Positions 19,594 to 57,371 of a stretch of 64,000 nt of DNA are shown here, in pieces. Under the pieces are notes generated by a model. That model was not told where the DNA came from and did not search any database. It worked only from the letters and a program-made list of their open reading frames with translations. The DNA lies in the NCBI RefSeq assembly GCF_035083965.1, contig NC_089723.1, positions 33,297,193 through 33,361,192 of the forward strand. The letters run 5' to 3'. Numbering within the stretch: position 1 is the first letter of the stretch; every line of letters begins with the position of its first letter. A program made the position numbers and the translations under genes. Source of the stretch: Branchiostoma lanceolatum (Eukaryota > Chordata > Leptocardii > Amphioxiformes > Branchiostomatidae).

Positions 19594-19666
19594 GGAAAGT
19601 AACCACCTGTTGAGATGTCCCACTTATCTAAGGTGTCTTATCTGATGGTCGCTTGACGTATAAATA
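19594..19666 (+). promoter_or_regulatory. Promoter of trypsin gene T1
   Basis: GGAAA-GTAAC-CACCTG lies at 19594-19609, CTTATCTGATGGT at 19637-19649 and the TATA box TATAAATA at 19659-19666. Read on the other strand, the first element is CAGGTG-N5-TTTCC, like the E-box/TC-box pair bound by PTF1. TTATCT is a GATA-factor core. Start codon at 19730. Confidence 0.8.
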
Positions 19667-19729
19667 CACCAGTCTCTGTCTGGAGACGCCTGCTCTCATT
19701 TGAGCTCTGTCAGCCGACTGAAACTCACC

Positions 19730-22700
19730 ATGCGCTTTTTCGTCTTCCTCGCACTTGTCTCTTACGCTGGTAGGTAGCATTTTGTCCTTTCGCCGGTGTA
19801 CCACTGACACTGTCAATAACCTTTCCCCGAATTTTATGAATTTCAAAATTGCCAGAGAGTTGAGCGCCTGACAATGTACCCTATCACATTAGATAGGGTA
19901 CGATGACCTGTGAGCATCGGCATATCCCTAAAAATTGTGCAGCAATAAAGAAGACATTGACCGGGCTGCAGCCAAAAATGTACATCAGGCATTAGACTTG
20001 TTAGGCGACTCATTTTTTTGCTGTGTGACGCCGGCATTCGGATAGAAGATTTTATGTTTAAGGCCCTGCCATATGGTGTCTAGCAAGACATGTATGCAAC
20101 TTACCTTGGTAATTCTTAATTTGTACTAATTGCTACTAGTTTTCCAAAAGAAAAGTAGTTGATTGATTGAAAACAGAAAAAAATGAACCGTTTGTACATT
20201 TTCTACACGGTCAGAGATGGTCATGAAATTTCTGTATCAAGATGATTTTTTAGATCTTTCAATGCAATCATCACATTTGAGCCATATATGACAGTAACAT
20301 TTCTTATTGAACTAATGAATTGAAATGACTTCTGCTCAGTCAGATTGACAGCGATAAAAAAGGTCGTAAACGAAGAAACCTTAAGATTTAGACACTAGCT
20401 CAATACCTAGCTATGTACAAACTTAAAGATAGAAGATGACAAAATGTTTGTGGCAGTTTTAAAAGCTGAATATCTACTGCACATAAGTGCATGATTCAAG
20501 CTCCTTGATTATGCTTGTTGAGTTGAAAATTCCTTCTCTCCAGCGGCGCAGGGTTATGAAGACCGCATTGTCGGCGGGTCGGAGGCGACCCCAGGTGCCT
20601 TCCCGTGGCAGGTGTCTCTGCAACAGAACGGCTATCACTTCTGTGGCGGCACGCTCCTCAACAGCCAATGGGTTCTCAGCGCCGCTCACTGCCAAATGAG
20701 GTACTGAAGGTCGTTATAACACTTTTTTCCTGTGTATTTCTCACATGTAGTCCATGTTGATTCAATTGTATGGATGACATCCTGACCTCTGGGAACCCCG
20801 AAACTAACCGTTCGAGTGTGAATAAGAAAGAAAAAAAGTTTGCCTTCAGTATGAAAAGTTGTCAGGAAGGTTGAACATATGACTAAACACACAGAGTATG
20901 TGTGTATGGCATACTAAACAATAGATTCTTCATTTTGTTCTTTTACATCTTCTTCTTTGACTTTGGAATTGACTTTGAGAATTCTACAACATGTGTTGAA
21001 TGTTCGTTTACGGAATATGTTGCTGTCGACAGTGCCAGTAGCATGACTGTAGTTGCCGGAGATCACGACTTGAGCAGAAACGAGGGCACTGAACAGAGTC
21101 GTCAGGTACAACAGGTCATACCACACCCAAGTAAGCGTATATTGCACATCCTTACTATTATAAGAAAGAAGTTGTGAAGTAATATGTCCTGTGGTTCATG
21201 AAGATGCAAACAGGGCACATTTAGATTATTTTGCAATTAACATGTTCTCAACTGAAAACAAATTCAATGATACAATATGTGCAGTTTGCATACATTGTAT
21301 GCAGACTCAAACTGAGTGCATTCTGCACATACTGAGTGCATTCTGTGCATACTGTGTGTATTCTTGTGTGTATTCTGCACATAATCATATGATAATGTGT
21401 GCTTTCTCTTTGTGCTTCTGCAACATTTGTAAGGTAGTTACTCGCATTGCTAATTCCCTCCCACGGGTAAATTTCTTAACCCGTGTTATGATGTTCAGGG
21501 AGCGGAATATGATTTTTCATATACGTCTATATCTAAGAAAAAACATGCAGAAATTTAAAGGTGGCTGTCTTGTCTTGTCTTGTACCTAGGTAGTCTGTTA
21601 AAACTTGAGAGCATCGTTTCTTTTCTTATCGTCGGCACTCAATATCGATACCACAAGGTTTTATGTTCAGCGACGATGTAAACTATTTGATGCTTTACTT
21701 GTTGATGTATAAACATCATGAGCATGAGTGTTGTGTTCACTGCTGATCTCCTTATCTAGACTACAACGACAACACCCTTAACAACGACATCATGCTCATC
21801 AAGCTCAGCTCTCCCGTCACTCTGAACTCCCGGGTCAGCCCGGCGTCCCTGCCATCCTCCATGGTTGCCGACGGGACCATGGTCACCGTAACGGGCTGGG
21901 GAAACACCCGTGCCAGTGGATGTAAGTACCCGTATCTTATGGACTCACCTTTGCTTAGGAAGATAAGTGCAGCCATTGTAGTACAGTTTCCTGTAGTGCC
22001 GCTGTATCCTCCTAGAAAATGTTTAACGGCACCAAGGGGAAATCCTGTAAATGGACTTAATTTCGTGTGAACTTAATTTCACGTTTGGGTTGAGGCAAAG
22101 ATTTTTCGCGGTTCAAACAATTGTGTTGATACACCTGTTTTGTCCTCCCTTCCACTTGTTTTTCCATGTGGTAAATTCAAATAAAGAAATAAAGAAATAA
22201 AGAAATAAAGAAATAAAGAAATTGTGCGAAGTTGTGCAACGTGCTCTGAGCTCTCGGTGGATAGGTCACTGCGATGATTAACATGCAGTGAACGTAAAAT
22301 CATCGCGACTGTATATCTACCGCTTAACGGTATCCCAAGCACACCGTGGCTTACCTAGTAGCTTATCGCTGACAGATCTATCTAGGTATGGTGCCAAGGG
22401 GCGTCATCGTTCAGTGTGGCTATGTACTGGTTGCTGTTCATTGTCGTTGCTTTTTCTGTGTAATCGTTGCCAGACAGTGTGTGGACATGTATGAATGCTG
22501 TGAACTATGATTGTTTTGCTGTAAGTGGTGATATGTGTGACATTACAGTTCATTCCTTTCCCCCTGATCAAACTTCCAGCTAACTACCCGGATAGGCTGC
22601 AAAAGGTCGATGTGCCCGTCGTCTCCCGATCCACCTGCAATGCTGCTAACGCTTACGGCGGAGAGGTCACGGCCAAAATGTTCTGTGCCGGCTACATGGA

Positions 22701-23219
22701 TGGCGGCAAGGACTCCTGCCAGGTAACGCAATTCTGTTGTAGAAAACTTTAGCTTGTATCTAAGAAACAATGTTTGTCCCTTTCTGTGACGTCTCTGTCT
22801 CCAGGTTATGACATAAGATGATACAATGATACGTGACAGTGAACATCGCACATCCCCAAATATCGTAAGCTAGCGGATGGAGATAAATAATTCCAATTTT
22901 ATAGGATGTTAGAATACATAAACTGCCCATGTCACATACAGATGCTTGAAGTATCAAAGAGGAAAATTTGATATTCAAATTTGTACTAGATTTGTCAGAC
23001 TTTTGTTAACCTGTGTAAAGTCCTTAACAGACATCGATCGACTAACGAACATGTTTGATGCTGATGTTTGTGTAGGGAGACAGCGGCGGTCCCGTGGTGA
23101 GATCCGGTACGGTCTACGGCGTAGTGAGCTGGGGCTACGGTTGTGCCCAGCGTAACTACCCGGGTGTCTACGCCAAGGTGAACAGATTCACCAGCTGGAT
23201 CAACGGTTACATCAATTAA
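19730..23219 (+). CDS. Trypsin-like serine protease T1 (trypsinogen), 6 exons, 247 aa
   Basis: Exons: 19730-19769, 20544-20700, 21033-21130, 21760-21921, 22580-22722, 23076-23219. A signal peptide ([13 protein letters not shown]) and a short activation peptide ending YEDR precede IVGG at residue 22. The catalytic triad is His62 (SAAHC), Asp108 (NNDIMLIKL) and Ser203 (GDSGGP). Asp197, Gly in SWGYGC and Gly in YPGVY correspond to 189, 216 and 226 of chymotrypsin numbering, giving trypsin specificity for Arg/Lys. Cysteines fit the 42-58, 168-182 and 191-220 disulfides; Cys1/122 and Cys136/201 are absent. The loop [13 protein letters not shown] keeps acids of the calcium site. It is expected to be a secreted digestive enzyme. 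AATAAA at 23290-23295. First of seven tandem copies; exon phases 1,2,1,1,0. Confidence 0.95.
19791..20037. repeat. MITE in intron 1 of T1 (shared by T1-T5)
   Basis: It lies about 20 nt after the exon 1 donor, from a GACACTGTCAATAACC-type end to a GCTGTGTGACG end. Equivalent sequence sits at the same place in T2 (about 24717), T3 (29342-29592), T4 (about 34157-35240, interrupted by later insertions) and T5 (about 43143). It was therefore present before those duplications. Confidence 0.6.
22178..22221. repeat. (AAATAAAG)-type microsatellite
   Basis: Tandem AAATAAAG units in T1 intron 4. Confidence 0.85.
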
Positions 23220-23295
23220 ATCAGCTGTACATGTGTCGACATGAGATCTGCAACTTTGCAACAATGTGCTGATCTACAACTCAGTGCAGAATAAA

Positions 23296-24490
23296 AGTGT
23301 AGTTATCATCACGTGTCTTGTTAGAATTTTTTCTTACGACCCCCTGCCAATGATTCATGGCAATAAATCATGTTGAACGAATTGGTTTGCAAGCAGTTGA
23401 TTTCGTAGGCCTGAGGAGGCTATCGCTACCCAATTGTTATAGTGAAAGCCACATACTACAGTATGCGATGTAGCGGTGCAAGTAGTTTTCCTCAATAATT
23501 ATGTAAAATAGGTCATGATTTGCATGATGTGCATCTCATTGTATTAATCATCAGTTAAAGTACGTGTATGTTTTTGTACACGCCAAAAACAATGAAAATC
23601 CACCAATCCCTGCTTAAGTTATCTTCCTCCAAAAATACCAATTAAGAGACCCACTGCAGTTCCGAACAAGTCGCTAGGGGGTCCAAACTTACAACACTCC
23701 CTGCTCCTCAACCGCCTAAAAATCATGACCAAAGCGCTTCCAGAACCAACTTTGAAGTTCTGCTGCAGTGCTGTCTTAAGCCGCTAGGAGACCCATTATC
23801 GAACTTGACCTTCGTTTTCCTGACCTCTACACCTACCAAATACCATGAGATCCACCCATAGCTTATCGAGTTATGCTGTCTGCAGTCAATCACACATGCA
23901 TACAAGTTCCGCTGACGTATGGTAAAAAGCCACCAAGAGACCCATTCTTAAAATCGACCTTACAATTACCGACACCTACCCACCTAACAAATATCATTGA
24001 CATTCATCCACAGCTTCTCGTCCGTTTCCACACCCAGTCTACCATAGCAAAACCGAAAAGATAACCTTCTGGCAAAGGTAACTAGAGGTATCCAGAGGCC
24101 TTGGCCATAGTGAGAAAAAACAAATCAACATTTTGATTTGCAAACGCTGCATATCATATCCATGTATCACAACAATAGTTACCATCATCACACGTCATAA
24201 CCATGAAACAAAATAGAAAATTCCTGGTTTGGTATACCACGTTCTGTATGTGCAGTCATTTGTAAAGCTTCATCGATCATTTAGATTTCGAAATGAAGGC
24301 AACTTTTTTGGGAAGCCTAACTTTTTGGCGCACACTCCCATCAATGTCAGGGGGCCCAAAGGATGTCATCCGAATCGCCTCCGCCAAGGTCTGTAGGGGT
24401 CAATAGTTATCACAGTTACAAAATTTCTTAATCTTTGAATGCTCGTTGCAACGGTTTAACACTAACCCTTATCTTCCAAGGCTGGTCGAT
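23296..24490. other. T1-T2 intergenic region, repeat-rich
   Basis: No gene. From about 23460 to 24420 it carries a block that recurs between T2-T3 (28380-29040) and T3-T4 (33010-33870), with words such as AATCCACCAATCCCTGCTTA, GACCCACTGCAGTTCC and GATTTCGAAATGAAGGCAAC. It is part of the tandem duplication unit and probably derives from an old interspersed repeat. Confidence 0.6.
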
Positions 24491-24496
24491 AACTCT

Positions 24497-24569
24497 GGAA
24501 AGTCACCACCTGTTCAGACGACTGACGCACCTAGGGTATCTTATCTGATGGTTACTGTACGTATAAATA
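24497..24569 (+). promoter_or_regulatory. Promoter of trypsin gene T2
   Basis: GGAAA-GTCAC-CACCTG at 24497-24512, CTTATCTGATGGT from 24540 and TATAAATA at 24562-24569. Spacing from E-box to TATA is the same as in T1 and T3. Start codon at 24655. Confidence 0.82.
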
Positions 24570-24654
24570 CATTGAACATGCACGTGTAAATCACCAGTCG
24601 ATGTCCAGAGAATCCTGTTCACACTCGAGCTCTGCCAACCGACTGAAACTCACC

Positions 24655-27600
24655 ATGCGCTGTTTTGTCTTCCTCGTTCTTGTCTCTTACGCTGGTAGGT
24701 AGCATTTTGTTCTTAATCCGGTCACATTGTCAACGACAGCTGTCCGAATTCGTTGATCGCCGGGAGGTTGCCGAATGTAGGAAAGGAAAATGACCTCGAT
24801 CCAGTTTTAGCTATTCTTCTACTGGTTGTGACAGAGAAGACAGGCACTATGTACAGTATTTACCGGTTCATCGGTTCATTATACCAAGGAAATTCTCCTA
24901 GCTCTTTTCGACAAGCACGATGAGAAGTGGACCATGGCTTAACGTCCCGTCGTAATGCCCCCGTCACAAATGAAAAAATCAGCTCGGCCGACGTTGGGCA
25001 TTTTCGGTCGATTACGCGGGCTTAGGTCGACGTTCGCGGGTCACTGGAAGCTGGGCTTAAAGGCATAGGCATAACAACCCCAGAAACGGGTGTTATTTGT
25101 AAAATACCACATCTTTATGAATGAAAGGTCATGACAGTTCCTTGACAATACTCGTTGAGTTCAAAAGTCTTAATTTTTTGTCCAGCGGCTCAGGGCTACG
25201 GAGACCGCATTGTCGGCGGGTCGCAGGCGTCCGCAGGTGAATTCCCCTATCAGGCGTCTCTGCAACAGCACGGCAACCATTTCTGCGGCGGCACGCTCCT
25301 CAACAGTGAATGGGTTCTCAGCGCCGCTCACTGCCAAGTCAGGTATTGCAGGATTTACCACTTTCTGGAATATTTCTCCTTGTTTGGCAAACGATACTTA
25401 CCGTGCGGATGCACGTCTTTAGCTATTAGCTATCATTGGCCCGAAAGAGTTGCATTCTACAGATAGCAATTATTTCTACAATGTATGAAACTTCTGAACA
25501 TCCCAAAACCTTCAATATTTCATAAAAAATTGTGCTTTATTTCAAACTAAACACACATATATATATGTTGTATTGTATTGAATAGAATGGTACCATGTGA
25601 ACCTCACTCTATCTAACAATGAATAAAGTTACCGTTGTCTGGTAATCCGTGTACCATGGTGAGAGGCTTGTGCACAGCAACCCACATGATGAGACGTATT
25701 GAACACGCGTGGTATCAGTTACTCACTCAACTGGATATATTTTGAAAACGGTCAGATGTTTCAGGTAACATTAGTATCCACCACCTTTCTTCAGTGACTG
25801 AGAAAGGTAGTGGATGCTGCAGACCGTTTCTCCCGTCTATCCAGTTGCTTGAGTAACTGTTACCTAGCGTATCGTTCCACCTGGATGTCTGACCTTCATC
25901 GACGACTCGTTAAATGTTTGTTTAAGGAATATGTTGCGTAACTGTTGTCGACAGTGCTAACAGCCTGACTGTAGTTCTCGGAGAGCATGACTTGAGCAGG
26001 AACGAGGGGCATGAACAGACTGTCCAGGCACAACAGGTCATAGTACATCCAAGTAAGCGTATATTTAACATCATTCAATACTGATGAGTAATGTGTCTTT
26101 CGGTTATTGAATACGCACACGTGTTATTTGGCCAATAGGACACATTCGGATCATATTACCATTGTGCTGTTTATAATTATAACAATAATGGTTTATTGGT
26201 CAGACATTACCCGTACAATGGCAGCCAGTGCTGAATTGCTGCAGGTTTTAGAATCACATAATACACAACAAATACATATTTGCTCCACACTTGCACATTA
26301 TGAAACTGTCGCAAGGGTCTGGGCGGCCATTCGACGCCAGCAGATGAACTCAATACGACCTTACCCAACCGAAGTCAGGTACCCATTCACACCTGGGTGG
26401 AGTGAGGAAAGTCGTGTAAAGTGCCTTTCCCAAGGACACAACATCGGGCATATCGGGGTTTCGAACCCGGCACCTCTCGGTACTGGTCGAAACACCCTAC
26501 CGATTACGCCACATGATGCCACGGTTTGGTGTTATATCCAAACAGCATGATTGACCGCACCATGTTTCTAAAAAAATCATCCTTGCTGTCAAATAGTGAT
26601 ATTCCAATCTCTGTACAAACATCTGATCTCATTGTCTAGACTACAACGACAACACCCTCAACAACGACATCATGCTCATCAAACTCCAACATCCCGTCAA
26701 TATCAACAACTGGGTCAGCCCGGCGTCCGTGCCATCCTCCATGGTGTCCCCCGGGACCATGCTCACAGTTACCGGCTGGGGAAACACTCTTTCCAGCGGA
26801 TGTAAGTTCTCTACACACTATGGACTACTTTGTCTGTTTTGCTGTAGGTGTTATGTGTGACATTACCATTCACTTCTTTCAATTTCTCCAAAAATCATTC
26901 CGAAAGCGAGACAGAATTACCAATACATGACTATATTGTGACCCATATACTGGTCTCGATGATATTTTGTACTTAGAATTGTAGGATAGATTAGCCTTAT
27001 AGTATTGTTGATTTAATGCCATACATTGTACCATGTACGATTGTGGAGCAATTAAGTTCATTAATTCATATAATGGACAACACTTCTTTCTTTTTGTGCA
27101 ACTTCCAGCTAACTACCCGGACAGGCTGCAGAAGGTCGATGTGCCCAAAATCGCCCGAGCCGAGTGTAACGCTGCCAATGCCTACGACGGCGAGATAACC
27201 ACCAAGATGTTCTGTGCTGGCTACATGGATGGCGGCAGGGACTCCTGCCAGGTAACGCAATTCTTCAGGCTGTTAGCACTGTCGACAACAATTACGCAAC
27301 ATATTCCTGAAAGAAAACTATTTACCAAACTATGTTTGTTCCACCGTGAATAGTTTCATCATGTTGGTGAATGACTGAATAAAAAAGTTCTTTAGTACCA
27401 TCAAGGAAATGACGCTTCGACGACAATATGTCATCTTCTTCAGGGAAATAATAACTGCGTCACTTTGTACTGCAGCTAGGTGTCGCTGCTGACAATGCGG
27501 TCCCAAGCGTGAATATTGTCACATTCATCGATCAAAGCCTCTTAACAATATCTATGCATGTGACAATACTTTTGAGACCGCATTGTTAGCAGTGAAACAT

Positions 27601-28152
27601 AGCTGCAGTGCAAAATGAAGCAGTCATTATTTCATTGAAGATGATGTCAGATGGGCATCGAAACGTCGGCTGTTATCATTTCGTTGGTGGTGAATAAAGA
27701 ACTTTGTTATTATGTTTGTTCCACTTTGATGTCTCCGGGTTGATCAACTGATGTCATGGCGACCACATGATTTGATACAATGACGCAGTGAATTGAATTG
27801 ACTTTGCATCTAAAATCATACATCGTTAAATATTGTCTGCTAACGGATGGAGATAAAGAATTTCAATTTTTATGATGCCCAAAAACATGCAATACCCGTA
27901 GAGGTAAATTTTGAAAAAAAGTATGATAGATATGATAGATTTGTCAAACTTTTGTTATCTGTCTAAAATCCTTAACGAACATGATTCAATGCTGATGTTT
28001 GTGTGTAGGGAGACAGCGGCGGTCCCGTGGTGAGATCCGGCACGGTGTACGGCGTAGTGAGCTGGGGCTACGGTTGTGCCGAGCGTAACTTCCCGGGCGT
28101 CTACACCCAGGTGAACAGATTCGAAAGCTGGATCAACGGTTACATCAACTAA
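24655..28152 (+). CDS. Trypsin-like serine protease T2, 6 exons, 247 aa
   Basis: Exons: 24655-24694, 25186-25342, 25955-26052, 26640-26801, 27109-27251, 28009-28152. Signal peptide [13 protein letters not shown]; the activation peptide ends YGDR before IVGG. Triad: His62 (SAAHC), Asp108 (NNDIMLIKL), Ser203 (GDSGGP). Asp197 (189 equivalent), SWGYGC and FPGVY predict trypsin specificity. It differs from T1 in having Tyr for Trp after EFP (FPYQASL) and in surface loops. Expected to be secreted and digestive. AATAAA at 28173-28178. Intron 3 holds a SINE (26305-26523) and intron 5 a foldback repeat (27379-27712). Confidence 0.95.
25716..25875. repeat. Foldback repeat in T2 intron 2
   Basis: An inverted pair, GTTACTCACTCAACTGGATA on the left and TATCCAGTTGCTTGAGTAAC on the right, encloses an inner inverted pair containing ACCACCTTTCTTCAGTGAC and GACTGAGAAAGGTAGTGG. 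A diverged copy lies in T4 intron 2 at about 37019-37150. Confidence 0.7.
26305..26523 (-). mobile_element. tRNA-derived SINE, type 2, minus strand
   Basis: On the minus strand it starts near 26523 with a tRNA-like part: GGCGTAATCGGTAGGGTG (A-box region) and GGGTTCGAAACCC (B box). Then comes GTGTCCTTGGGAAAGGCACT, a block shared with the plus-strand copy at 47152-47455. It is not a tRNA gene because the cloverleaf is not kept. Confidence 0.75.
27379..27712. repeat. Foldback repeat in T2 intron 5, also in T3, T4 and T6
   Basis: The left half (AAAGTTCTTTAGTACC, TGTCATCTTCTTCAGGGAAA, GCTAGGTGTCGCTGCTGACA) is the inverted complement of the right half (TGTTAGCAGTGAAACATAGC, GAAGATGATGTCAG, AATAAAGAACTTTG). 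Copies lie at 31940-32221 (T3 intron 5), 40970-41297 (T4 intron 5) and, in another intron, 51941-52170 (T6 intron 4). The right half carries ATCGAAACGTCGGC. Confidence 0.7.
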
Positions 28153-28178
28153 TGATCTGCAACTGAGCTCAGAATAAA

Positions 28179-29110: not shown

Positions 29111-29112
29111 CT

Positions 29113-29185
29113 GGAAAGTCACCACCTGTTCAGACGACTGACGCACCTAGGGTATCTTATCTGATGGTTACTTGGAGTATATAAA
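29113..29185 (+). promoter_or_regulatory. Promoter of trypsin gene T3
   Basis: GGAAA-GTCAC-CACCTG at 29113-29128, CTTATCTGATGGT at 29156-29168 and TATATAAA at 29178-29185. The geometry is the same as in T1 and T2, so the gene is probably still transcribed although its product lacks the catalytic His. Confidence 0.82.
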
Positions 29186-29278
29186 CATTGAAAATGAACA
29201 CGAAAACCACAGTCGATGTCAGGCTAGGCTGGAGAAACCCGTTCTTGTTTGAGCTTTGGCAACCGACTGAAAATCACT

Positions 29279-32200
29279 ATGCGCTGTTTGGTCTTCCTCG
29301 CTCTTGTCTCCTACGCTGGTAGGTAGTATTCTATTGTTTAGTCGGTCACACTGTCAACGACCGCCGCCCGAACTTGTTGATCGCCTGAGGCTGCCGAATT
29401 TCAAAATTGCCAGAGAGTCGAGCGTATTTTTCGCCTGAATATTTACCCTATCACATTGGACGGTGTTCGGCGGCAGACCCCTGAATATCGAATAAAGATC
29501 GAGAGGAGACCGGCCGTGTTGCTGCTGAAAATGTCCACAAGAGCTCACAGAGTCGTCAGGCGAGTGATTTCATGCATACTGTGTGACGTTGCGTTACGAG
29601 ATAAGATTTTACTCAAACCATATAGTGTCAATGTAAGGTGCATCCAGCTCCTACACACAACTTTATTGGGTTGCTTATTCTTAATGTTACCAGAAGAATA
29701 TCACTATTAGTTAAGAAATAGCTGATTGGCAGAAAAAAAACGATGTTACGTTAGTATATTCTGTACACGGGTATAGAGATGATCATGAAATTTGTTTGTC
29801 AAGATGATTTGTAAACAATATTTCAACGTTAATCATCTCGAATGGGCCGTATATGGCAGCAACATATTTTGAAGAACTAATAGTAATGTAAAATGTTTCT
29901 GTTCGGTCAGATTGACAGTGCTAATGCAAACGGAAACGACCAAACCTTACTCTAGACACTAGCTCAGTAGCCAGCTATAAACAAAAAAATGAGATGAAAG
30001 ATGTTCGTTTCTGTTTTGAAAACCTGAGTAACTGTTGCTCGAGTACATTGTAGTTCCCTGATTATTCTCGTTGAGTTGAAGAGTCTTTTTGTCCAGCGGC
30101 TCAGGGCTATGGAGACCGCATTGTGGGCGGTTCGGAAGCGATTCCAGGTGAATTCCCATGGCACGTGTCTCTGCAAGGGTCCGGCCGCTATTTCTGTGGC
30201 GGCACGCTCCTCAACAGCCAATGGGTTCTCAGCGCCGCTCAATGTGAAGTCAGGTATTGCAGGATTTATCACATTCCTGTCTATTTCGTCGAGTTAGGCA
30301 AATAATTCTTACTGTGTGGTTGCACGTCTTAAGTTGTAACTTAACAATGTTCCGAAAGTTAAGCAGAGCTACATTCTACAGATAGCAAGTATTACTACAA
30401 TGTATGAAACTTTTGAACGTCAATTTTCATACGGAACATGTTGTGTAACTGTTGTTGACAGTGCTAACAGCATGACTGTAGTTGCCGGAGATCACGACTT
30501 GAGCAGAAACGAGGGGCACGAACAGAGTCGTAGCGTACAACAGGTCATACCCCACCCTGGTAAGCGTATCAAATACAAATTAAGGTACAAACTCTACAAA
30601 CACTATAGTTAAAGTTAAAATCCTCCCACACCATAATTGATGTATAGGGCGGTGCCCATCTCCGTTTCATAGCCCTGGGGCCACACTGTGGTGCAATCAC
30701 TGCAGCAGGCGGCTAGTCCACTGGCAGTGGAGTGCGTTTAACTTCCATACCGTTTCATAAGTATGTACCATTTTTATAAAGTCTTTGGTATGACTCAATG
30801 CGCCTCTTGTCCAGAGGTGCCCTACCTGGGGCTTGAACCCCAGTCCTTCTGGTCCAAGTAATTTGAACCAGATGTGGCAGAGTAGCAAATGCGTAGACCA
30901 CTACACCACAGGGACACCCCTATACAATATACAATACTGTACAAACGGAAGATTGACAGACGCCTTATTTCTCGAAAAATCATCATCCCTGCTGTCAAAT
31001 AGTGAGCGAAAGAGTTTAGAACACAGACATACATGCACAGAGGACTGTCAAACCTCAAGCATTTTACTGCAGTGGTTTTGGTTGTGCTGCTGCAGCGTTA
31101 AAGTTAGTATGGCTGATTTCTATAACTGATTGGCTGATTGTTATGATATGGAATCGGAATATTGTTTTTATATATGCCTTTATCTGAGGAATAACATGGA
31201 GAAAAGGTGACAGTGTTGTCCTCTAGAGGGGATCTAGATGGTCTGAATATTTGGTAGCATTCATGCGTTTCTTATGTTCGGAGCATGTAATAATAGGTAT
31301 ATATCATAGATACGACACAAAGCGACAAGCCAACAAGTATTATATGTATTTCAAATTTGTTATCATTTTATAACGAGGTTTTATGTTCTGCGACGATGTA
31401 AACTGTTTGATGTTGTGATTGCTGATGTTATTATCTCTGTACAAACGTTTCTGATCTCATTGTCTATAGACGACGACATCATGCTCATCAAGCTCAGATC
31501 GCCCGTCACTCTCAACTCCCGGGTCAGCCCGGCGTCCCTGCCGTCCTCCATGGTTTCACCCGGGACCATTGTCACCGTCACGGGCTGGGGAAAAACTCAT
31601 GAAAACGGATGTAAGTTCTCTACAGACTATGGACTACTATGATTATTTTGCTGTATGTCCTCATATGTGACATTAGCATTGACACATTTTTATGCAACTT
31701 ATATAGATAACCTCCCGGACAAGCTGCAAAAGGTCGATGTGCCCACCATCTCCCGATCCGCCTGTAACGCCCCCAATGTTTACGACGGCATGGTCAGTGC
31801 CAATGAGTTCTGTGCCGGCTACATGGATGGCGGCAAGGACTCCTGCCAGGTAAACGCAATTCTGTTGCAGAAAACTATCTACCAATGCAAACTATGTTTA
31901 TTCTTCCGTAAATAGTTTCATCTGGTTGATGAAGGACTGAACAACAAAGCTCTTTATTCACAACCGACTTGTAGGGAAATGATAACTGATGCATTTTGTA
32001 CTGCAGCTAGATGTCACTGCTAACAGTGGTCTCAAAAGTATTGTCACATACATAGATATCGTTAAGCAACAAAACTTCTTAACAATATTTGTCTATGGGA
32101 CAGTACCTTTGGGACCTCATTGTTAGCTACAGTGCAAAATGAACCAGCCATTATTGCCCTATTATGTTCATCGAAACTTTGGATGTTATCATCATTACAT

Positions 32201-32649
32201 TGGCTGTGAATAAAGAACTTTTTTATGTCTCCGGGTTGATGAACTCATGTCATGACCACATAACTTGATACACGATACAGTGAATTGAATTTGCATATTA
32301 TGTACTGCTAAATATTGTCTACTAATGGATGGATATAAAGAGTTTAAACTTTTTTTATGATGCCCGCAAATTTGCAATACACGTGTCACCTACAGGTGCT
32401 TCAAGTAAGAGAAAATTGAATAGAAATTGAAAAAGATTTGTTAGACTTTTATTATCTGTGTAAAATCCATAACGAACAGGATTTGATGGTGATGTTTGTG
32501 TGTAGGGAGACAGCGGTGGTCCCGTGGTGAGATCCGGCACGGTGTACGGCGTAGTGAGCTGGGGCATCGGTTGTGCCCGGGAGAATGCCCCGGGTGTCTA
32601 CACCAAGGTCTCTAATTACGTCGACTGGATCAACGGTCACATCAATTAA
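29279..32649 (+). CDS. Trypsin-family pseudoprotease T3 (catalytic His replaced by Gln), 6 exons, 240 aa
   Basis: Exons: 29279-29318, 30097-30253, 30462-30559, 31470-31610, 31707-31849, 32506-32649. All splice sites and phases are intact and there is no premature stop. Signal peptide [13 protein letters not shown]; the activation peptide ends YGDR. At the catalytic His position the codon is CAA, giving SAAQC (Gln62) where the other six copies have SAAHC. Exon 4 is 21 nt shorter than in T1: the loop YNDNTLN before the catalytic Asp is gone, leaving DDDIMLIKL (Asp101). Ser196 in GDSGGP, Asp189, SWGIGC and APGVY are kept. Without His57 it should not be a working protease; it could bind substrate or inhibitor, or be decaying. 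AATAAA at 32699-32704. The promoter is fully conserved. Confidence 0.92.
29342..29592. repeat. MITE in intron 1 of T3
   Basis: From GGTCACACTGTCAACGACCG to CATACTGTGTGACG, with the CCTATCACATTGGACGG core. It is a member of the intron-1 family described at 19791. Confidence 0.65.
30617..30920 (-). mobile_element. tRNA-derived SINE, type 1, minus strand
   Basis: On the minus strand it starts GGGGTGTCCCTGTGGTGTAG, contains the A-box word TGGTGTAGTGG and the B box GGGGTTCAAGCCCC, and ends in AAAATCCTCCCACACC-complementary sequence. A copy lies at 40637-40934 in T4. It sits in T3 intron 3. Confidence 0.85.
31940..32221. repeat. Foldback repeat in T3 intron 5
   Basis: Member of the family at 27379: left part AAAGCTCTTTATTCACAACC, right part GAATAAAGAACTTTT, with TACTGCAGCTAGATGTCACT between. 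Confidence 0.65.
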
Positions 32650-32704: not shown

Positions 32705-33930
32705 GCGTAATCATAGTAACATGTCTTGTTAGCATTTCTCTTACTTTCTTGTGACCACGCAGGCTTGGGCAATGCATCACGTTGGATTTATTGGTTTGCC
32801 AGTGGTTGATTTCGTTGGACTGAGGAGGCCATGATAAGCTCGTGCCTCATCATATTAGCATGATGATTATATCTTACATAACTTTCCTGTCGTGTAACTA
32901 AAACAGTTAGCAACTAGAGTTCCACGACCTCATACCTTCGCCAAATGTATTACCCTTAACGATGCAAGTATTAAATCCTCGTAATTTACCAATATGGTCT
33001 TATAGTATTTTCTCATCAATCATTCAAATGTGCATGTGTATTCAAATATTTGTCAATATTCCTCTCTTTCTTTAATAGTGACAGATGCCAGATGTATAAA
33101 AGTCATATAGTGTAATGCAGCATTTATAAAGTTTCACCAATTGTGCAAATTAGCTCTTTTTTTTGCATATTTAGCATCTTCATATGTCAATCATCAAGTT
33201 CACTTAAGCTATCTGATAACCAAACAGAAATGAAAGCAGAGATCTGTTTTTCAATTGCCCAACTAGAAATGCCGGCTGTATTTTGGCCTATTTACCTAGA
33301 ATCCAGGACGCCAATTGTAATAGTGAAAGCTACATGCTACCGTATGCGTTCAGCAGTGCTACAAGTTTTCCTCAATAATTCTGTAAAATAGGTCATGATT
33401 TGCATAATGTGCATCTCATTATGTTAGTCGTCAGCTGATGTAAAAATGCCAAACACAGTGAAAATCAATCGATCCCTGCTTAACATGATATAGCATCCTC
33501 CTCCAAAAAATACCAACAAAGAGGCCCACTGCAGTTCCGAACAACCGCTTGGGACCCCAAACTTACACCACTCACTCCCGGCTCCTTACCTCTCCAAAAT
33601 ATATTTCTAGCCCTGAGTGAAGTCTTCCAAAGTCAAAGAGGAAGATGTGAAATAAGAAATAGGTAATTTATTTTTTTAGCATATCACGTTCTGTATGTTC
33701 AGTCGTTTATAAAGCTGAGCTTCTTGATCACTTAGATTTCGAAATGAATGCAACTTTTGTTAGGCCCAACTTTTTTTTTCGCACAATCGCATCAATTTCA
33801 GGGAGCCCATAGGATGTCACCCGAATCACCTCCTCTAAGATCTATAGGGGTCAATAGTTACCACAGTTGCAACATTTCTTTGAAATGGCTTAACACTAAC
33901 CCTTATCTTCAAAGGCTGGTCGATAACTCT
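32705..33930. other. T3-T4 intergenic region, repeat-rich
   Basis: No gene. It carries the tandem-unit repeat block (about 33010-33870) and a segment near 32920-32960 (GTTCCACGACCTCATACCTTC) whose inverse occurs at about 39890-39920 in T4 intron 4. Confidence 0.6.
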
Positions 33931-34008
33931 GGAAAGTCACCACCTGTTCAGACGACTGACGAACCTATGTTATCTGATGGTTACTTGTAGTATATATATA
34001 TATATATT
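33931..34008 (+). promoter_or_regulatory. Promoter of trypsin gene T4
   Basis: GGAAA-GTCAC-CACCTG at 33931-33946, GTTATCTGATGGT at 33969-33981 and a long TATA run (33991-34007). E-box to TATA is 5 bp shorter than in T1-T3. Confidence 0.8.
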
Positions 34009-34095: not shown

Positions 34096-41500
<7,405 letters not shown>

Positions 41501-42877: not shown

Positions 42878-42963
42878 GGAAGGTTACATGTACCGCCTGT
42901 TTAGGCGTCCTTCACTCTTATAATTAGACTACCTTATCTGATGGTTACTGCATGTATATATAC
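42878..42963 (+). promoter_or_regulatory. Promoter of trypsin gene T5 (E-box degenerate)
   Basis: CTTATCTGATGGT at 42933-42945 and TATATATA from 42955 are kept at the usual 22-bp spacing. The upstream element is GGAAG then CGCCTG with an 11-bp gap, so the CACCTG core is lost and the spacing is changed. Confidence 0.7.
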
Positions 42964-43052: not shown

Positions 43053-46000
43053 ATGCGCTGTTTCGTCTTCCTCGCTCTTGTCTCTTACGCCGGTAGGTAC
43101 CATTTGTTTCAACTCAGTTCAATTCAATTTCACTTTGTCTTTTAGCCGGTGTGACATCGTCAACGACCTTCGACCAGCTTTAGTAATGGCCAGAAGGTCG
43201 CCGAATTTCAAAATCGCCAGAGAGTGGAGCGTATTTTTCACCTGAAAATTTAGCCCATCACACTTGACGTGATCAGTGAAAACATAAGGCTAGCCAATGT
43301 CCTTGATTATATCCGTTGAGTTGAACCTTCCTTCCCTCCAGCGGCTCAGGAATACGGAGACCGTATTGTCGGCGGGTCGGAGGCGACCCCAGGTGCCTTC
43401 CCCTGGCAGGTGTCTCTGCAACAGCACCACGACCATTTCTGTGGCGGCACGCTCCTCAACAGCCAATGGGTTCTCAGCGCTGCTCACTGCCAAATGAAGT
43501 ACTGCAGGATTTAACACTTTCTTTCTTGCGTATTTGTCACACACAGTTATTGTTACCGTACGGTTGCTCGTCCTCAGCTATCACTTAGTTTTTACCAAAC
43601 TAACTGCGCTGGCTGTAGGGAGAATGATATTGCCAGGGAAGTTTGGCCACCATAAGGTTTCATTGGGCAAGTGCAGTCAGAGAGGAGGCGGACTGACCCT
43701 CCTGGCTAAGTTTTCCCCGAATGCTACGATCCATACCCCCGTAGAAAGGCTGGTGGAGGCTAGCCACCACCCTTGACTGTTCCGAAAGTCAAGCATTGGC
43801 ATTCTTTAGATAGCACCCAACGTTACAATGGTGAATTAGATTTTTTAACGTCTTAAAAACAACATAATTTCACCAAACATTTCTGCCTTATCTTCAACTA
43901 AATACATACAGGTATCATTCAAACCTCATGATAATAGTGAACAGAGTTACAGCTGTAGCTATAGTGTAATCGTTGTACCAAATAAAAAGCCTGTGCACAA
44001 TGAAAATAGTCATTTTTTCACCCACATATGTAACATGTTTTGAATGTCCGTTTACGGAATATGTTGTACTATTACTACTATCCACAGCGCTCACAGCATA
44101 ACTGCAGTTGTCGGAGATCACGACTTGAGCAGAAACGAGGGCACCGAACAGAGTGTCCACGGATCACAGATCATTGTGCATCCAAGTAAGCGTATATTTT
44201 GCATCATTCTTACATTATATGCGTGTCCTGTGGTCATTGAAGACGCACAGCTGTCATTTAGTCAACAGACACATTGAGATCATTTACCATTGTGCTGTTT
44301 AGTGTTACGTCCTTTGGCCAGTCGCAGACTGACAGTCAGCATATATCTCGAAAAAAATCATTCCTGTTGTCAAATATTGGGGGAAAGACTTCAGAACACA
44401 ATCATATATGCACAGAGGACAGCCAACTCAATCATTAAAAGATAATGACCTCACACTATGTAACGAGTTTATGGTCGGCGACGACGCAAACGATCTTATG
44501 CCGTGATTGTTGGTGTTCTAATATCGGTATAAACACGAGAGATGTGTTAATCTATGATTTCCTTGTCTAGACTACAACGACAACACCCTTAACAACGACA
44601 TCATGCTCATCAAGCTCCAACATCCCGTCAATCTCAACTCCCGGGTCCGTGCGGCGTCTCTGCCGTCCTCCATGGTTGCCGACGGGACCACGGTCACCGT
44701 CACGGGCTGGGGAAACACTCTTGCCGACGGCTGTAAGTAACAGAATCTCGAGGGCTGTTGAATTGGCGTATATCAAGTCAGTATGAGTTCCGTATTGGCA
44801 GTTTTTGCCTTGGATAAAGTTTGCGGCCGAAGAAGTCGTTTTTTTCTCGGTTCGATAACCCGAGACTGGGCGGCGGTGATTCAACGTTAAAAAATACCCC
44901 CCACAATCTTTGCCTGAACAAAAATAAAAATGTCAATCCGGAACTCATACAAACTTGATATGAACACAAGTGTGACCCCCCTCCCTTGGGCCCTGTCACA
45001 CTTCTGCACACTTCTGCGTATATCAAGTCCGTATGAGTTCCGTTTTAATTGTTTTTAGTACGCAGCCCCACGCTACAAATTCCACTGTGTCTGTTCCGTT
45101 GTACTTCATTACTTATTTATCTATTAATCTTTAGGGCGGTCCCTTCAGTTAACTATGTAACTGATTTCCAAGGGAGCCCTTATATTACATGACAGATACG
45201 TATGTATGACATAACCATTAATGTCCTTTCCTGATCCACCTTCCAGCTAACTACCCGGACAGGCTGCAAAAGGTCGATGTGCCCGTCGTCTCCCGATCCA
45301 CTTGTAATGCCCCCAACTCTTACGATGGCGAGATAACCGCCAACATGTTCTGTGCCGGCTACATGAGTGGCGGCAAGGACTCCTGCCAGGTAACTCCATT
45401 CTGTTGTGGGAAAATATTTTTGTTTTTCACGTCTCCGGATTACTATATAGTTATGACTAGGGGTGGGTACCGGTACAAACAATTCAGGTCCGGTCCAGGT
45501 CCAGGTCCAGAGGGTCAGGTCCAGGTCTGGACCTGTACCTGTACCTGATTATAGTAGTGTCGCAGTACATCATATTTTGGAGAGCGAGACACACGCAAAA
45601 GTCTCCAAACGTCATGTCTGGAACGATATAATTTTTGAGGTTTGCACTTTGTCTCAAAATTATAATTATACTCTTCTCGCCGTCTGTTTACTAATCCTTT
45701 AAGTGTTTCTAGGTATGATTCACAGCTAACGTCTTCGAAAACGAAGTTAAATCTGCTGTTTTGTATTTTCTTAGACCAGTTATGTGGCCGCCTGGTACTA
45801 TGAATTTTCTAATCGGTCCATAGGCCGGTCCACTGATTTTATACGGACCGTTTTTTTTGGACCGGTCCATTAAGAAATACCGGTTTTGTACCGGTACACG
45901 GTACCGGTACCCACCCCTAGTTATGACGTATTTGCATGTTGCATCTCGAAGGCAAATATCGTCAGCTACTGGATGGAGATAAAGACTTTCCTTCTATGGG

Positions 46001-46594
46001 TCGATAGACATGAAATTGGCATGTATAATGGGTCACCAAAAAGGTAGGCCCCTCTCACACATTCTGTACCGTCCTACAACTTTGCTCCCGGCTGCTCTCC
46101 AAAAAGGTCAGCGGTGGGTTAGGTCTAGCCTAGAATCCATCCTTATCTAGCTGTAGTTCGTTCTTCCGATCAAAACCAAACTGACTAAGAATTTCCGACT
46201 GAAATTCATTGACGACCGGCGCATGCGCGCAAACGACGTTCTAAAAATATTGCTACAGGTGACATTTCTCACGACTAGCTCCCAACCATGGTTTGAGGAA
46301 GGTTGGGAGAGGTCGGCAGTCCATGGTCGGCCCTGATGTGAACATTTAAATACAAGTTTACACTTAAGTTGTAAAACTTTTATCACCTGCGTTAATTCCT
46401 TGTCAAACATCGCCTAATGTACAGGATTTGATGCCGATGTTTGTGTGTAGGGAGACAGCGGCGGTCCCGTGGTGAGATCCGGCACGGTGTACGGCGTGGT
46501 GAGCTGGGGCTACGGCTGTGCCCAGGAGAACCTCCCGGGTGTCTACACCAAGGTCTCCAATTACGTCAACTGGATCAACGGTCACATCAATTGA
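43053..46594 (+). CDS. Trypsin-like serine protease T5, 6 exons, 247 aa
   Basis: Exons: 43053-43092, 43342-43498, 44088-44185, 44571-44732, 45247-45389, 46451-46594. Signal peptide [13 protein letters not shown]; the activation peptide ends EYGDR before IVGG. Triad: His62, Asp108, Ser203 (GDSGGP). Asp197 (189 equivalent), SWGYGC and LPGVY give trypsin specificity. Exon 2 ends in AA before GTACTG rather than AG, changing the split codon to Asn and weakening the donor. AATAAA at 46644-46649. Intron 5 holds a hAT-type MITE (45458-45919). Expected to be a secreted digestive enzyme; most like T1. Confidence 0.94.
44764..45040. repeat. Inverted-repeat element in T5 intron 4
   Basis: GCGTATATCAAGTCAGTATG near 44765 is inverted near 44940-44965 (GGAACTCATACAAACTTGAT) and repeated directly near 45016. 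The centre has CGGTTCGATAACCCGAG. Related words occur before T7 exon 2 (about 58800-58930). Confidence 0.5.
45458..45919. mobile_element. hAT-type MITE with GTTATGAC 8-bp target duplication
   Basis: The ends TAGGGGTGGGTACCGGTAC and its inverse are perfect. GTTATGAC flanks both sides (45450-45457 and 45920-45927). Just inside lies a short tandem of GGTCCA/AGGTCC units. No coding frame of note. Confidence 0.88.
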
Positions 46595-48700: not shown

Positions 48701-48918
48701 CGACACAAATGGCACAATATAATAGAAAAAATCACCTCCGCCAAAGGTACGATAGATATTTAAACATTATCTATACGACCTTAAATTGCTGTGATATCTT
48801 AGAATAAACGTATCAAACTTATGTGAGATTCTATGATAAACATAGAAGCAGCATAGAAGCGACTTGTTGCCTTCAACCACTTATCTTCAAACGCATATAT
48901 GTTGATCGATAATCGTGA

Positions 48919-48956
48919 GGAAAATGACCACCTGTATAACTGTCTTATCTGATGGT
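48919..48956 (+). promoter_or_regulatory. Promoter of trypsin gene T6 (no TATA box)
   Basis: GGAAA-ATGAC-CACCTG at 48919-48934 and CTTATCTGATGGT at 48944-48956. At the usual TATA position (48966) the sequence is TAGATGAT, so the TATA box is lost or very weak. The gap between E-box and GATA motif is shorter than in T1-T3. Confidence 0.72.
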
Positions 48957-49048
48957 TCCTGGGTGTAGATGATGTGTACACCTCGGACGGTAGAAGCGCT
49001 GGTGCCTACAAGGGATTGTACACTTCTGCCAGCCGGCTAAAACAGAAG

Positions 49049-53279
<4,231 letters not shown>

Positions 53280-53441
53280 GTCAACACCAGGCCATGATCA
53301 GGTTTCGTCAGTAGAGGATATCACGACGACCTGACAATGTTTCCAACTATGCTGATCTTCAGAATAAAATCATAATTGTTACCTCCGTGCAGTTGTCTGG
53401 GTATGTTTGTTCACAGCTATAACTCAGGATCCCATTGATTC

Positions 53442-53474
53442 ATTTGTTTGTTTGTTTGTTTGTTTGTTTGTTTG
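53442..53474. repeat. (TTTG)n microsatellite
   Basis: About eight TTTG units downstream of T6. Confidence 0.88.
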
Positions 53475-54527
53475 TATGTATTTTGACATGTCGGTAGTTA
53501 GTGAGGTCCCGAAGATGCCTGTCGATTTTGGGCAATATTGTTAGGTAATGCAAAATTATAGAACACCACCACTCAACTTGATGGCCACCCAATGGTAGCC
53601 TGTACAACACAAGCTTTCGCTGCCTGGAACTAATTAGCTACTGTACAAGGAGAGGTTAGGCCACTGCCTTGGTTACTTCCTAGATTTATAATAAACAACT
53701 ACATGGACATGAATTGAAACAGGTTTTAAAGAAATTGTAATTCCTGGCAAAGAGGGTACCAAACACCTTAGCCCTACAACAAACACGTCCGTGTATCATC
53801 ATTAATTCAGCTTCTTTCACGGTCATGTTTTAGTGTCCACTCTGTCTTCTAGCCCGCTAACTGCAGCATTCTGCACTTCACACCCATTGCAAGGATAAGA
53901 TTTGTAGACTTTTTGGGTAAACCAGATCAAAATGGCATCGGATAGGAGATACATGGTGCATCAGGGTTCGAAAGACATGTACTTCTAAAGACCAATATGC
54001 AATGGTGGCTGAAGCTTTAAATTTTAATGATGGCCATGGAGCAATATCCGTGACAGTCGAAGCAACACACATGATTTACCGTACCTTGGAGCAGCACCCA
54101 TGTGAAGTTGGACGATTTTCAGCGCCATTTTGACACTTCCGAAAAATCTAGAAGCAACAGGACCACACGTTCGCTAAGTTATAGCTCCCTTAGACTCTCC
54201 GTTTGATAATGACACGGTTTAACGGGTCTGCCATTCATTTCATTTCAAGTCGCTTCACCAACTCGCTTCTGTACAAGGACCCCACTGTTATTCAGCGGAA
54301 TAGAATAGAACTGCAAGTAAACTGTCAACTTTGTGTTGTGGATTCTGATTGGTGGGATATCCAATAAGTCCAATGGATTTCTAATCATAATCATCAATAT
54401 TTTCAATGTCTCTTCTGATTGGTTAAATCTAGTATTGCGTCAGGTCAAGTCTATGATGCTGGAGTATTCATTCACTGAACTGCTAGAGGGCGCTCTTAAC
54501 ACTCAATGTAAAATTGCATGGGGAATA

Positions 54528-54735
54528 CTATAAATGCAGAAATGTTCGCGGTGGATTATGCTCACGGTTTTCGAGGTGAACTCTTTACCGCGAACTTAAA
54601 ACCACGGCGAAATGCCGTTCAAGTGTTTGACTTTAGCGCTACTATTGTTTAAAACACAAACTCAAAACCACCGCGAACACTCCATTTTCTCCCTACCGCG
54701 AAATTAAATCCCCGCGAACATTTCTGCATTTACAG
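54528..54735. mobile_element. TA-target MITE, copy 1
   Basis: The left end CTATAAATGCAGAAATGTTC and right end GAACATTTCTGCATTTACAG are inverted repeats continuing into GCGG, flanked by TA (54526-54527, 54736-54737). The interior has ACCGCGAAC words. The second copy is at 62253-62459. Confidence 0.85.
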
Positions 54736-57321
54736 TACACTGTGCCATTCGTTTTTGATCCGCTCGATAACGTTCTTGAGACGCAACAAAGAATCGGCGA
54801 TCATCGATTGTAGCCCGGATTGTAGCCATTGAATTGTTTATCTATTATCTTCGTAAAGGAGGTTCACCTCCGTCGGGGGTTCTAGTATTGCAATCGCATG
54901 GGTTTATGTGTTAGTAGCTATAACTCCAATCCCTTTTGATGCATTTATATTTTCGCATGTCAGCACTTAGTGAGGTCCCGATGATGCCTGTCGATTTTGG
55001 GCAGCCTAGAAGTATTCTAGGTATTGTAAAATTATAAAACGTCACCCCCATCTTGATCTCAGCCCCCATTGAAACATCTGTTAGTCACCTAATTGTAGCT
55101 ATAGCCGTATGTATCTATAGCATGCACATAGATGTGTTTTATTAGTTTTGATCGAAGAGTTGCATTCAGCCTGTGAACACTGTACAATTACATGTCACCA
55201 ACGAGTCAGCAATCATTGTTTGTGTGGATGTGATGTTTAACCGTCTCCCTGCTGCCTAACTCTTTAACCAATAGAGAATGGGGTGCCAAACGGCTACTTC
55301 AGTGTGCTAAAAGTAGGTGGTTTTAAACCATGCCTTTAAGGCATTTTCCAACCAAAACTCGTATAGTTCCATTCATGTGGTTTGCAGATCCAAATTAATT
55401 GTGTTATGAAGTGGTGAGAACGTGAGTACATTTAGTTGAGTCCGTAGTTGGCTCCAGGATAGGCTGTGAGTTTCCAGTTTTTGTAACATGATTCGGTATC
55501 TAACGTTATCTATATCATGCGCCTGTCCTTACACCCATGGTCAAGTTGATTAACACGGAAAAAGCAACGTTATTTGACAAGGTTTCTGATTAACTTTTGG
55601 CATCGATTCTATAAACAAGGCCCCATCTCACTGGACCCGCAACAGTGCGGCCTCGCTGCGTCCTAAATTGAATTTGTGTTACCCTTGACTTTATGATGGG
55701 AATATCATCACAACCGTATGACTAAAAAGACAGCTAAACACACAAAACGTAAAATGATTAGTTTTTTTTACCGATGGAATTCATTTAGCGCTCTGTCAAA
55801 TCGCCTGGTCGCAGCGAGGTCGCCAACATGCTGCGGGTCCAGTGAGATCTTTTCTCCGATTCTTGGAGTCAACGACTTAACTGGGCGAGATATCAGTTTG
55901 AACGCTACAAGGACACATAACGTCCTTCAGTGCCCTTCCACACACCCTGATGTCCTTGATATATAAATAGACGAGAAAGGCACCAGGAGGTGTTATTTTT
56001 ATGGTAAAGGACAGGGCAAAGAGCGGCATACTATAGTCTGTTGCCCTGTCACTTGGCATGACCTGGCGCTGACATGTATCGGGAGCATGTGTCAACACTT
56101 CTATTGAGGCTTGCACTGTGATTCTTATCGTGACAACAGGGTGTGTCACAGAAGGAAACGCACTCTAAGAATAATCTTAACCCATCTAACATCCCGGCCA
56201 TCCATGTTAAATGCATAGTTGAATGTATCCAACAGACAGCACGACTGTCTAGATGGTATAGTACTTGAAGACGATAGATTAATTCACTCATACATGGCGG
56301 TACTTCTTATCTTGTGGCGAGTTCTTTATCGTGCCAGAGCTCTTCACAAACAGACACACAAACAAACAAATGGCAACGAAAACATAACCTTCTTGACGAA
56401 GGTAATAAAAAGTTGATCGTAACGACCCTCAAACACCATTGTGTGGCAACCATTCAACGGACTCAGGGACACCGTAACGGGTACCATCAATGTACAAGAA
56501 ACATCATTCTATAGTTCATCAATATACTAATACTTGTACAATGTATAGCTGTTGAATTACAATATGATGAAAATACCAGTGCCCTGGTGATCTTAAGTTT
56601 TGCATTGTTAAACTGTATCTGTTGCCGAAATCTGCAAGAAAAGAGAATCCCTGTCTATCTAATTTGTTCAGGACCATAATTTGAAACACAACATTTTCAA
56701 TTCTTCCAGGCTTGACCTGCTTACTGACCTGCGTCATTGCCGATTGCCATGTGACTATGACGTATTCTTAACCCTTCCATGTTGGTTGGTCGGTCAAGGA
56801 CGCGAGCCAAGGACGCCTCTACTTCAGCATGCTTAGAAATTCAGCGATGACTATGCTGTTGAGGAGGGATGTTGAAAATTGTGTTGAAAAGATGGTGTGA
56901 TATAGATATAAACGTTTTTCAGTGCTGTTTTGTTTTGTTTCCTAACTCGCTGCTGTTCCCGAATCTAGCTAGATTGTAAAAGTTCCCAGTCACAGTGAGT
57001 CAGCCCTATAAGTATAACGTGTTTGATTGTACATTTTTAGGTTTACACATGTACATAGCAAATTTGTTCTGTATATATTTAGCGTACAGACCAACGCACA
57101 TCCGCCAGCAAGGCCGTGAGCCATTAGTTATCACAATTCTAAAGATATTTTTTTGGGGGGTTTTAATACTTTTGTAATTGTCTTACTACAATGCGTACAG
57201 CTTTGAATCCGATCTATCAAAAATTTACCCAAATTGATATGAGGTTCTAGAATAGAGCAGGATATGCCTTTTTTTACTAACGCTTATCATTATCATCAAA
57301 CGTACCAATTTAGCACGTGAG

Positions 57322-57371
57322 TGAGAAAGTGCCACCTGTTGTTGAAATTGCACCTTATACTAATAAACGGG
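57322..57371 (+). promoter_or_regulatory. Promoter of trypsin gene T7 (diverged)
   Basis: GAGAAAGTG-CCACCTGT lies at 57323-57339. The next motif is CTTATACTAATAAA (57354-57367), so the GATA core is altered and merged with an A/T-rich TATA-like stretch. The whole promoter is about 40 bp more compact than T1. Confidence 0.55.

Follow-up and report, generated by a model that had tools for sequence, protein, structure and literature searches.

A probable GATA and TATA promoter core with a partly PTF1-like E-box module upstream of the genes of a trypsin cluster in Branchiostoma lanceolatum

Seven trypsin genes (T1 to T7), arranged head-to-tail on the forward strand of a 64-kb stretch of the Branchiostoma lanceolatum genome (assembly GCF_035083965.1, contig NC_089723.1, positions 33,297,193 to 33,361,192; this whole stretch is the window, and positions are numbered within it), raise the question of whether the regulatory code of pancreatic acinar cells was already present in the promoters of an animal outside the vertebrates. 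A preliminary description of this DNA had proposed that a fixed module upstream of the genes resembles the vertebrate PTF1 site, accompanied by a GATA-like block and a TATA box. We consider it probable that this module represents the proximal promoter of an ancestral trypsin gene, duplicated in tandem together with the gene and partly preserved by selection. As to its nature, the best reading, which we hold with somewhat better than even confidence, is that of a putative GATA-driven, TATA-containing gut promoter with an E-box of the basic helix-loop-helix (bHLH) type.

The best-conserved piece of the upstream regions is the proximal GATA block TTATCTGATGG, which occurs six times in the window, solely upstream of T1 to T6 (Table 1). 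The block had been assigned to T1 to T5, and all five carry it, but it is also found in T6, that is, in six of the seven genes. A TATA box follows at a constant distance in the five genes that have both elements (T1 to T5), as had been reported; the value is 21 bp, counted start to start, rather than 22 bp. The TATA box itself lies 71 to 105 bp ahead of the start codon in T1 to T5, and T7 has a TATA-like stretch only. In the proposed mechanism, a gut factor of the GATA4/5/6 type would bind the TTATCT sites, and the site held 21 bp before the TATA box would help to place the transcription machinery; the GATA factor and the TATA complex would most likely form the core of the promoter.

Upstream of this core lies the E-box module GGAAA-N5-CACCTG, of which the window holds five exact copies on the two strands, upstream of T1, T2, T3, T4 and T6, exactly where it had been described. 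No copy was found away from the trypsin upstream regions. Taken as strings, these elements exceed chance, but their copies are homologous. The N5 spacer, about 11 bp centre to centre, is shared by these five of the seven promoters, and the two departures are also as first described: the T7 version, GAGAAAGTGCCACCTG, is one base tighter (N4-type), and the degenerate T5 version, GGAAGGTTACATGTACCGCCTG, has GGAAG, a spacer 6 bp longer and, in place of an E-box, CGCCTG. CACCTG is therefore present in six of the seven promoters (T1 to T4, T6 and T7) and lost in T5, where the E-box is broken, yet the GATA block and the TATA box are kept. Measured start to start, the E-box precedes the TATA box by 55 bp in each of T1, T2 and T3, in agreement with the equal spacing claimed for them, and by 50 bp in T4; the distance from E-box to GATA block is 34 bp in T1 to T3, 29 bp in T4 and 16 bp in T6. 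The full geometry is thus found in T1 to T3, and the module can be called fixed for these three genes only, because T4 is 5 bp shorter, T6 is without a TATA box and T7 without an exact GATA block; T5 deviates as well.

In the GATA-driven promoter that we favour, a bHLH dimer on CACCTG, probably with an E-protein as partner, would add tissue or cell specificity. The E-box might also be bound by an E-protein homodimer, another class-A bHLH factor or a zinc finger of the Snail, Scratch or ZEB type, with GGAAA merely accompanying it, and we regard this as a serious possibility, although not the expected outcome. The 8-bp E-box core CCACCTGT has seven collinear copies with a single change, in T5, and is better preserved than GGAAA. 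Five of the seven promoters also carry AACAGGTG, presumably a Snail-like sequence, which occurs six times in the whole window. Moreover, TCF3 homodimers choose CACCTG (PMC8431614). Against such a binder, the diverged T6 retains GGAAA at an equal distance, and one would hardly expect a repressor to bind this near the TATA box of a gene for a secreted enzyme.

The promoter copies descend from one duplicated promoter, with no independent gains, and their likeness has to be weighed against the age of the duplications. Synonymous divergence (dS) is 0.26 to 0.39 among T1 to T5, 0.44 to 0.54 between T6 and T1 to T5, and 0.58 to 0.69 for T7. The upstream regions of T2, T3 and T4 are 78.6 to 79.6% identical over 443 to 509 bp, near the level of alignable intron pieces (67 to 84%), and agreement among these three genes therefore says little. 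The statement that the flanks have diverged more than the motifs holds for T1, T5, T6 and T7, where flank decay is clear, but not for T2 to T4. We then compared the conserved runs with a neutral simulation (Jukes-Cantor model without indels, on a tree from the third codon positions of 221 codons). Twelve consecutive invariant columns over T1 to T6, as in the GATA block, had a probability of 0.003 when 350 columns were simulated and of 0.001 for 200 columns; with the tree shortened to 0.75 of its length, the values were 0.039 and 0.018. Fourfold sites, 55 in number, give a tree of about 0.8 times the length obtained from third positions (1.03 versus 1.28), and the values at 0.75 can therefore serve as a reasonable lower limit to the significance. 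The GATA block thus exceeds neutral drift in the simulation, and its invariance over 12 columns in six genes differing at dS 0.26 to 0.54 supports the GATA-driven reading.

The E-box module behaved differently in the same simulation. Strong selection on the whole 16-bp block was considered and dropped: its probability was 0.0025 when T5 was excluded and a single position had been chosen beforehand, and 0.90 in a scan in which any one gene could be dropped. The 8-bp core, with seven genes and one singleton change, gave a borderline value of 0.062, and 0.36 with the tree at 0.75. These two values for the block scan and the core, and the 79% identity of the T2, T3 and T4 upstream regions throughout their length, are what would be expected if the E-box module were under little selection and the similarity stemmed mostly from gene conversion or a recent common origin. 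We consider this rather unlikely, since T6 and T7 (dS 0.44 to 0.69 to the rest) keep the E-box at its place in the order, in DNA that is otherwise poorly alignable, and since the GATA block lies above the neutral expectation. T6, the second most diverged gene of the cluster, shares with T1 to T5 four ordered blocks of at least 9 bases (AATCACCTCCGCCAA, CCACTTATCTTCAAA, ACCACCTGT and TGTCTTATCTGATGGTT), a result matched by 15 of 300 shuffles (k = 9); three blocks at k = 10 were matched by 3 of 300. Local alignments of the T6 upstream region were reached by none of 300 shuffles against each of T1, T2, T4 and T5, and by 4 of 300 against T3. T7 shares two 10-base blocks, TAGTTATCACA and CCACCTGTTG (20 of 300 shuffles), or three 9-base blocks (49 of 300), and its upstream region aligned better than shuffles with T5 (0 of 300), T6 (1 of 300) and T2 (3 of 300). 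The placement of its E-box is alignment-dependent, being out of register in the first full alignment and in line in a shorter one of the last 200 bp. The T7 register rests on T6 and this seven-way 200-bp alignment, because the alignment of T7 with T2 leaves the modules unmatched.

GATA sites are also abundant beyond the proximal block. In the 350 bp ahead of each of the seven start codons, WGATAR occurs 20 times, versus 7.7 expected from the window density, and AGATAAG 10 times, versus 0.8, with at least one WGATAR in each promoter; these are homologous copies, which partly derive from the same ancestral sites. Such sites are the proximal one (T1 to T6), an upstream one, which T1, T2, T4 and T6 carry and to which two TTATCA sequences correspond in T7, and a distal TGATAA (T2, T5 and T7). 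The preliminary description had named the proximal GATA block alone; the upstream GATA site and two distal blocks are additional. The first of these, the GATA- or HNF1-like TAGTTATCACA of T2, has copies with one mismatch over 14 bp in T3 (29019), T4 (33855), T5 (42797) and T7 (57125). The second, AATCACCTCCGCC of T6, has variants in T1 (19472), T2 (24373), T3 (28988), T4 (33824) and T5 (42763). Read from the distal end, the order is AATCACCTCCGCC, TAGTTATCACA, upstream GATA, GGAAA-N5-CACCTG, proximal GATA block and TATA box, complete or nearly so in T1 to T4 and eroded in T5 to T7. HNF1-like sequences with three mismatches number 16 versus 3.7 expected, a count that includes both strands of a palindrome and is only a lead, and NFI and HNF4 motifs are near background in the promoters.

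Several observations weigh against a GATA-driven promoter preserved by selection. No TATA box was found in the stretch searched 3' of the T6 GATA block, and T7 has no exact GATA block. With the tree at half its length, the 12-column run becomes unremarkable (0.38 in 350 columns, 0.24 in 200). The T7 upstream region did not rise above shuffles against T1, T3 and T4 (101, 76 and 80 of 300, respectively). Finally, six of the genes form one family, and therefore the GATA enrichment does not come from independent sites.

We next asked whether the E-box module could be a PTF1 site, defined as an E-box CANNTG and a TC-box TTTCCC (PMC2586380), for which spacings of N4-6 or N14-16, one or two helical turns, were allowed. 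The E-box is present and lies at the one-turn spacing. At these spacings, TTTCCC accompanies none of the 13 E-boxes of the seven promoters, and TTTCC accompanies five; the letters on the TC-box side are TTTCCA in T1 to T4, TTTCCT in T6 and TTTCT in T7. Outside the promoters, TTTCC stands at those spacings from 4 of 327 CANNTG and from 1 of 63 CACCTG, CAGGTG or CAGCTG sequences, so the pairing is uncommon elsewhere and mildly notable, though it represents a single inherited instance. On the strand that reads TTTCC the site is CAGGTG-N5-TTTCC; if the vertebrate order is taken as CACCTG-N-TTTCCC, the E-box half-sites would be flipped by comparison. The canonical arrangement (CACCTG or CAGCTG, N4-6, TTTCC) is absent from the window, and the Su(H)-type motif YRTGDGAA from the seven promoters, where 1.0 would be expected. 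T1 is one mismatch away from YGTGGGAA, and the T7 letters are GTGAGAA, which we take to differ little from what Su(H)-type proteins prefer. Likewise, in the 350-bp promoters the FOXA motif TRTTTRC (1.7 expected) and the exact NR5A2 motif (0.2 expected) were not found. The mouse acinar factors besides PTF1 are GATA, FOXA and NR5A2 (PMC10553828); two of them are thus without a clear site here, and GATA is present.

A true PTF1 site, with PTF1A and an E-protein on a reversed CACCTG and an RBPJ- or RBPJL-like factor on GGAAA as a weakened TC-box, therefore seems to us unlikely. In its favour are the one-turn pairing in five of the seven promoters and its scarcity elsewhere, the near matches of T1 and T7 to the Su(H)-type motif, the PTF1-like sites and the requirement for Ptf1a in sea urchin enzyme genes (PMC4880809) and the co-binding of Ptf1a with GATA in pancreas (PMC8431614). 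On the other side stand the missing TTTCCC, canonical order, Su(H)-type, FOXA and NR5A2 motifs, the apparently flipped half-sites, the loss of the module in T5 and the descent of the five sites from one instance. The module may work like a PTF1 site and cannot be filed as one, because it lacks TTTCCC and the Su(H)-type motif, its E-box appears to be reversed and the FOXA and exact NR5A2 motifs are absent. We regard it as improbable that the promoters carry an early form of the acinar code, in which a PTF1 site in reversed setting, its RBPJ half weakened, would have been locked to a GATA-TATA core before the vertebrate pancreas arose, and which the duplicates T5, T6 and T7 would be losing or rewiring one after another as their enzymes specialise. 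Of the combination first proposed, the GATA block, the TATA box and the one-turn spacing stand, and the PTF1 part is weak. Overall, GATA is, as far as these motifs indicate, a stronger signal than PTF1, and the genes have a genuine promoter of a common type, which is partly under constraint and whose resemblance to PTF1 sites is no more than suggestive.

The genes behind these promoters were modelled from their exons. In all seven spliced models the frame stays open between DRI(V/I)GG, where the mature enzyme begins, and the stop codon. The four proteins scanned (T1, T3, T4 and T7) match Pfam Trypsin with E values of at most 8.8e-71 (3.9e-84 for T1), and the top PDB match of T1, the only one compared, is the trypsin 1a0j_A (E 1.4e-81), which we take to be a fish enzyme. 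By its predicted proteins, the cluster is one of vertebrate-type trypsins, which counts in favour of the gut promoter reading. T3 has glutamine for the catalytic histidine (AAQC for AAHC) and a shortened exon 4, yet its frame is open and its promoter intact; its product is probably not an active protease. T4 has GESGGP for GDSGGP and KSACV for KDSCQ, and its protease activity is probably lost or changed, because these motifs are substituted while the frame is open and the ratio of nonsynonymous to synonymous divergence against the other cluster genes is 0.47 to 0.85. A short family of 70-nt direct repeats, 61 to 79% identical, lies within the T4 (38862 to 39231) and T7 (61136) genes. Outside the cluster, positions 2608 to 5467 hold two ASB-type open frames, for which Pfam indicates ankyrin repeats together with a SOCS box. 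Comparison of the T1 protein with a collection of genome contigs gave 46 pattern stretches and no relatives, and the combined module pattern had no match among viral contigs, both searches being uninformative on animals.

Table 1. Trypsin genes and upstream elements in the window; the first position of each gene row is the gene start.
Feature	Positions	Strand	Basis or remark
T1 trypsin gene	19730..23219	+	open frame over 6 exons, from ATG to stop codon; exon model, Pfam
T2 trypsin gene	24655..28152	+	exon model
T3 trypsin-like gene	29279..32649	+	exon model, Pfam
T4 trypsin-like gene	34096..41500	+	exon model, Pfam
T5 trypsin gene	43053..46594	+	exon model
T6 trypsin gene	49049..53279	+	exon model; exon 2 start provisional
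T7 trypsin gene	57419..63342	+	exon model, Pfam; exon 2 start provisional
T1 proximal GATA block TTATCTGATGG	19638..19648	+	exact string search
T2 proximal GATA block TTATCTGATGG	24541..24551	+	exact string search
T3 proximal GATA block TTATCTGATGG	29157..29167	+	exact string search
T4 proximal GATA block TTATCTGATGG	33970..33980	+	exact string search
T5 proximal GATA block TTATCTGATGG	42934..42944	+	exact string search
T6 proximal GATA block TTATCTGATGG	48945..48955	+	exact string search
T1 TATA TATAAATAC	19659..19667	+	
T2 TATA TATAAATAC	24562..24570	+	
T3 TATA TATATAAAC	29178..29186	+	
T4 TATA TATATATAT	33991..33999	+	
T5 TATA TATATATAC	42955..42963	+	
T7 CTTATACTAATAAA, possible decayed GATA block or TATA	57354..57367	+	interpretation
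T1 GGAAA-N5-CACCTG	19594..19609	+	exact string search
T2 GGAAA-N5-CACCTG	24497..24512	+	exact string search
T3 GGAAA-N5-CACCTG	29113..29128	+	exact string search
T4 GGAAA-N5-CACCTG	33931..33946	+	exact string search
T6 GGAAA-N5-CACCTG	48919..48934	+	exact string search
T5 degenerate version GGAAGGTTACATGTACCGCCTG	42878..42899	+	
T7 version GAGAAAGTGCCACCTG	57323..57338	+	
T1 upstream GATA CTTATCTTC	19562..19570	+	
T2 upstream GATA CTTATCTTC	24468..24476	+	
T4 upstream GATA CTTATCTTC	33902..33910	+	
T6 upstream GATA CTTATCTTCAAA	48880..48891	+	
T7 upstream GATA pair CTTATCATTATCATC	57283..57297	+	
T2 distal TAGTTATCACA	24404..24414	+	GATA- or HNF1-like
T6 AATCACCTCCGCC	48730..48742	+	

Were the E-box part a working PTF1 site, the cluster would offer seven natural promoter variants for studying the origin of the pancreatic enzyme code; should GATA and a general E-box alone be important, it would represent a simpler form of gut promoter that vertebrates elaborated later. 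Under either reading, T5, with its broken E-box and intact GATA block and TATA box, is a natural test. In the literature searched, mostly papers available without subscription, we found no description of PTF1 sites for the trypsin promoters of amphioxus.

GATA-dependent gut promoters are known across bilaterians, for example those controlled by GATAe in insects or the targets of ELT-2 in nematodes. The trypsin promoters resemble them in having WGATAR sites near the starts of gut enzyme genes, and differ from them in the 21-bp step from GATA to TATA and in the E-box, which are features of the trypsin family here. With the PTF1-type acinar promoters of vertebrates (PTF1A, an E-protein and RBPJ or RBPJL) they share an E-box that lies one helical turn from a box of the TTTCC type; unlike those, and judged on sequence alone, they have no TTTCCC, neither FOXA nor exact NR5A2 motifs in 350 bp, and apparently flipped half-sites. 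GATA sites lie close by, as they do in mouse acinar enhancers, which Gata4 occupies with Ptf1a (PMC10553828). In the sea urchin, digestive enzyme genes with predicted PTF1 sites in their promoters are under the control of Ptf1a, and the authors conclude that this type of cell may be older than the pancreas (PMC4880809); Gatae, Ptf1a, Rbpj and trypsin genes are co-expressed in exocrine-like cells of this animal (PMC9437490). An acinar-like code that arose before the pancreas has already been published for the sea urchin; from the single locus studied here it would be a hypothesis. Whereas Ptf1a dependence was tested there by morpholino, the trypsin cluster is compared by its sequence only, and the sites are likened by description rather than by letters; the putative Ptf1a sites of SpCpa2L, SpPnlp2/5 and SpAmy3 (Perillo et al. 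2016) resemble those described here in that invertebrate enzyme genes carry a predicted pair of E-box and TC-box.

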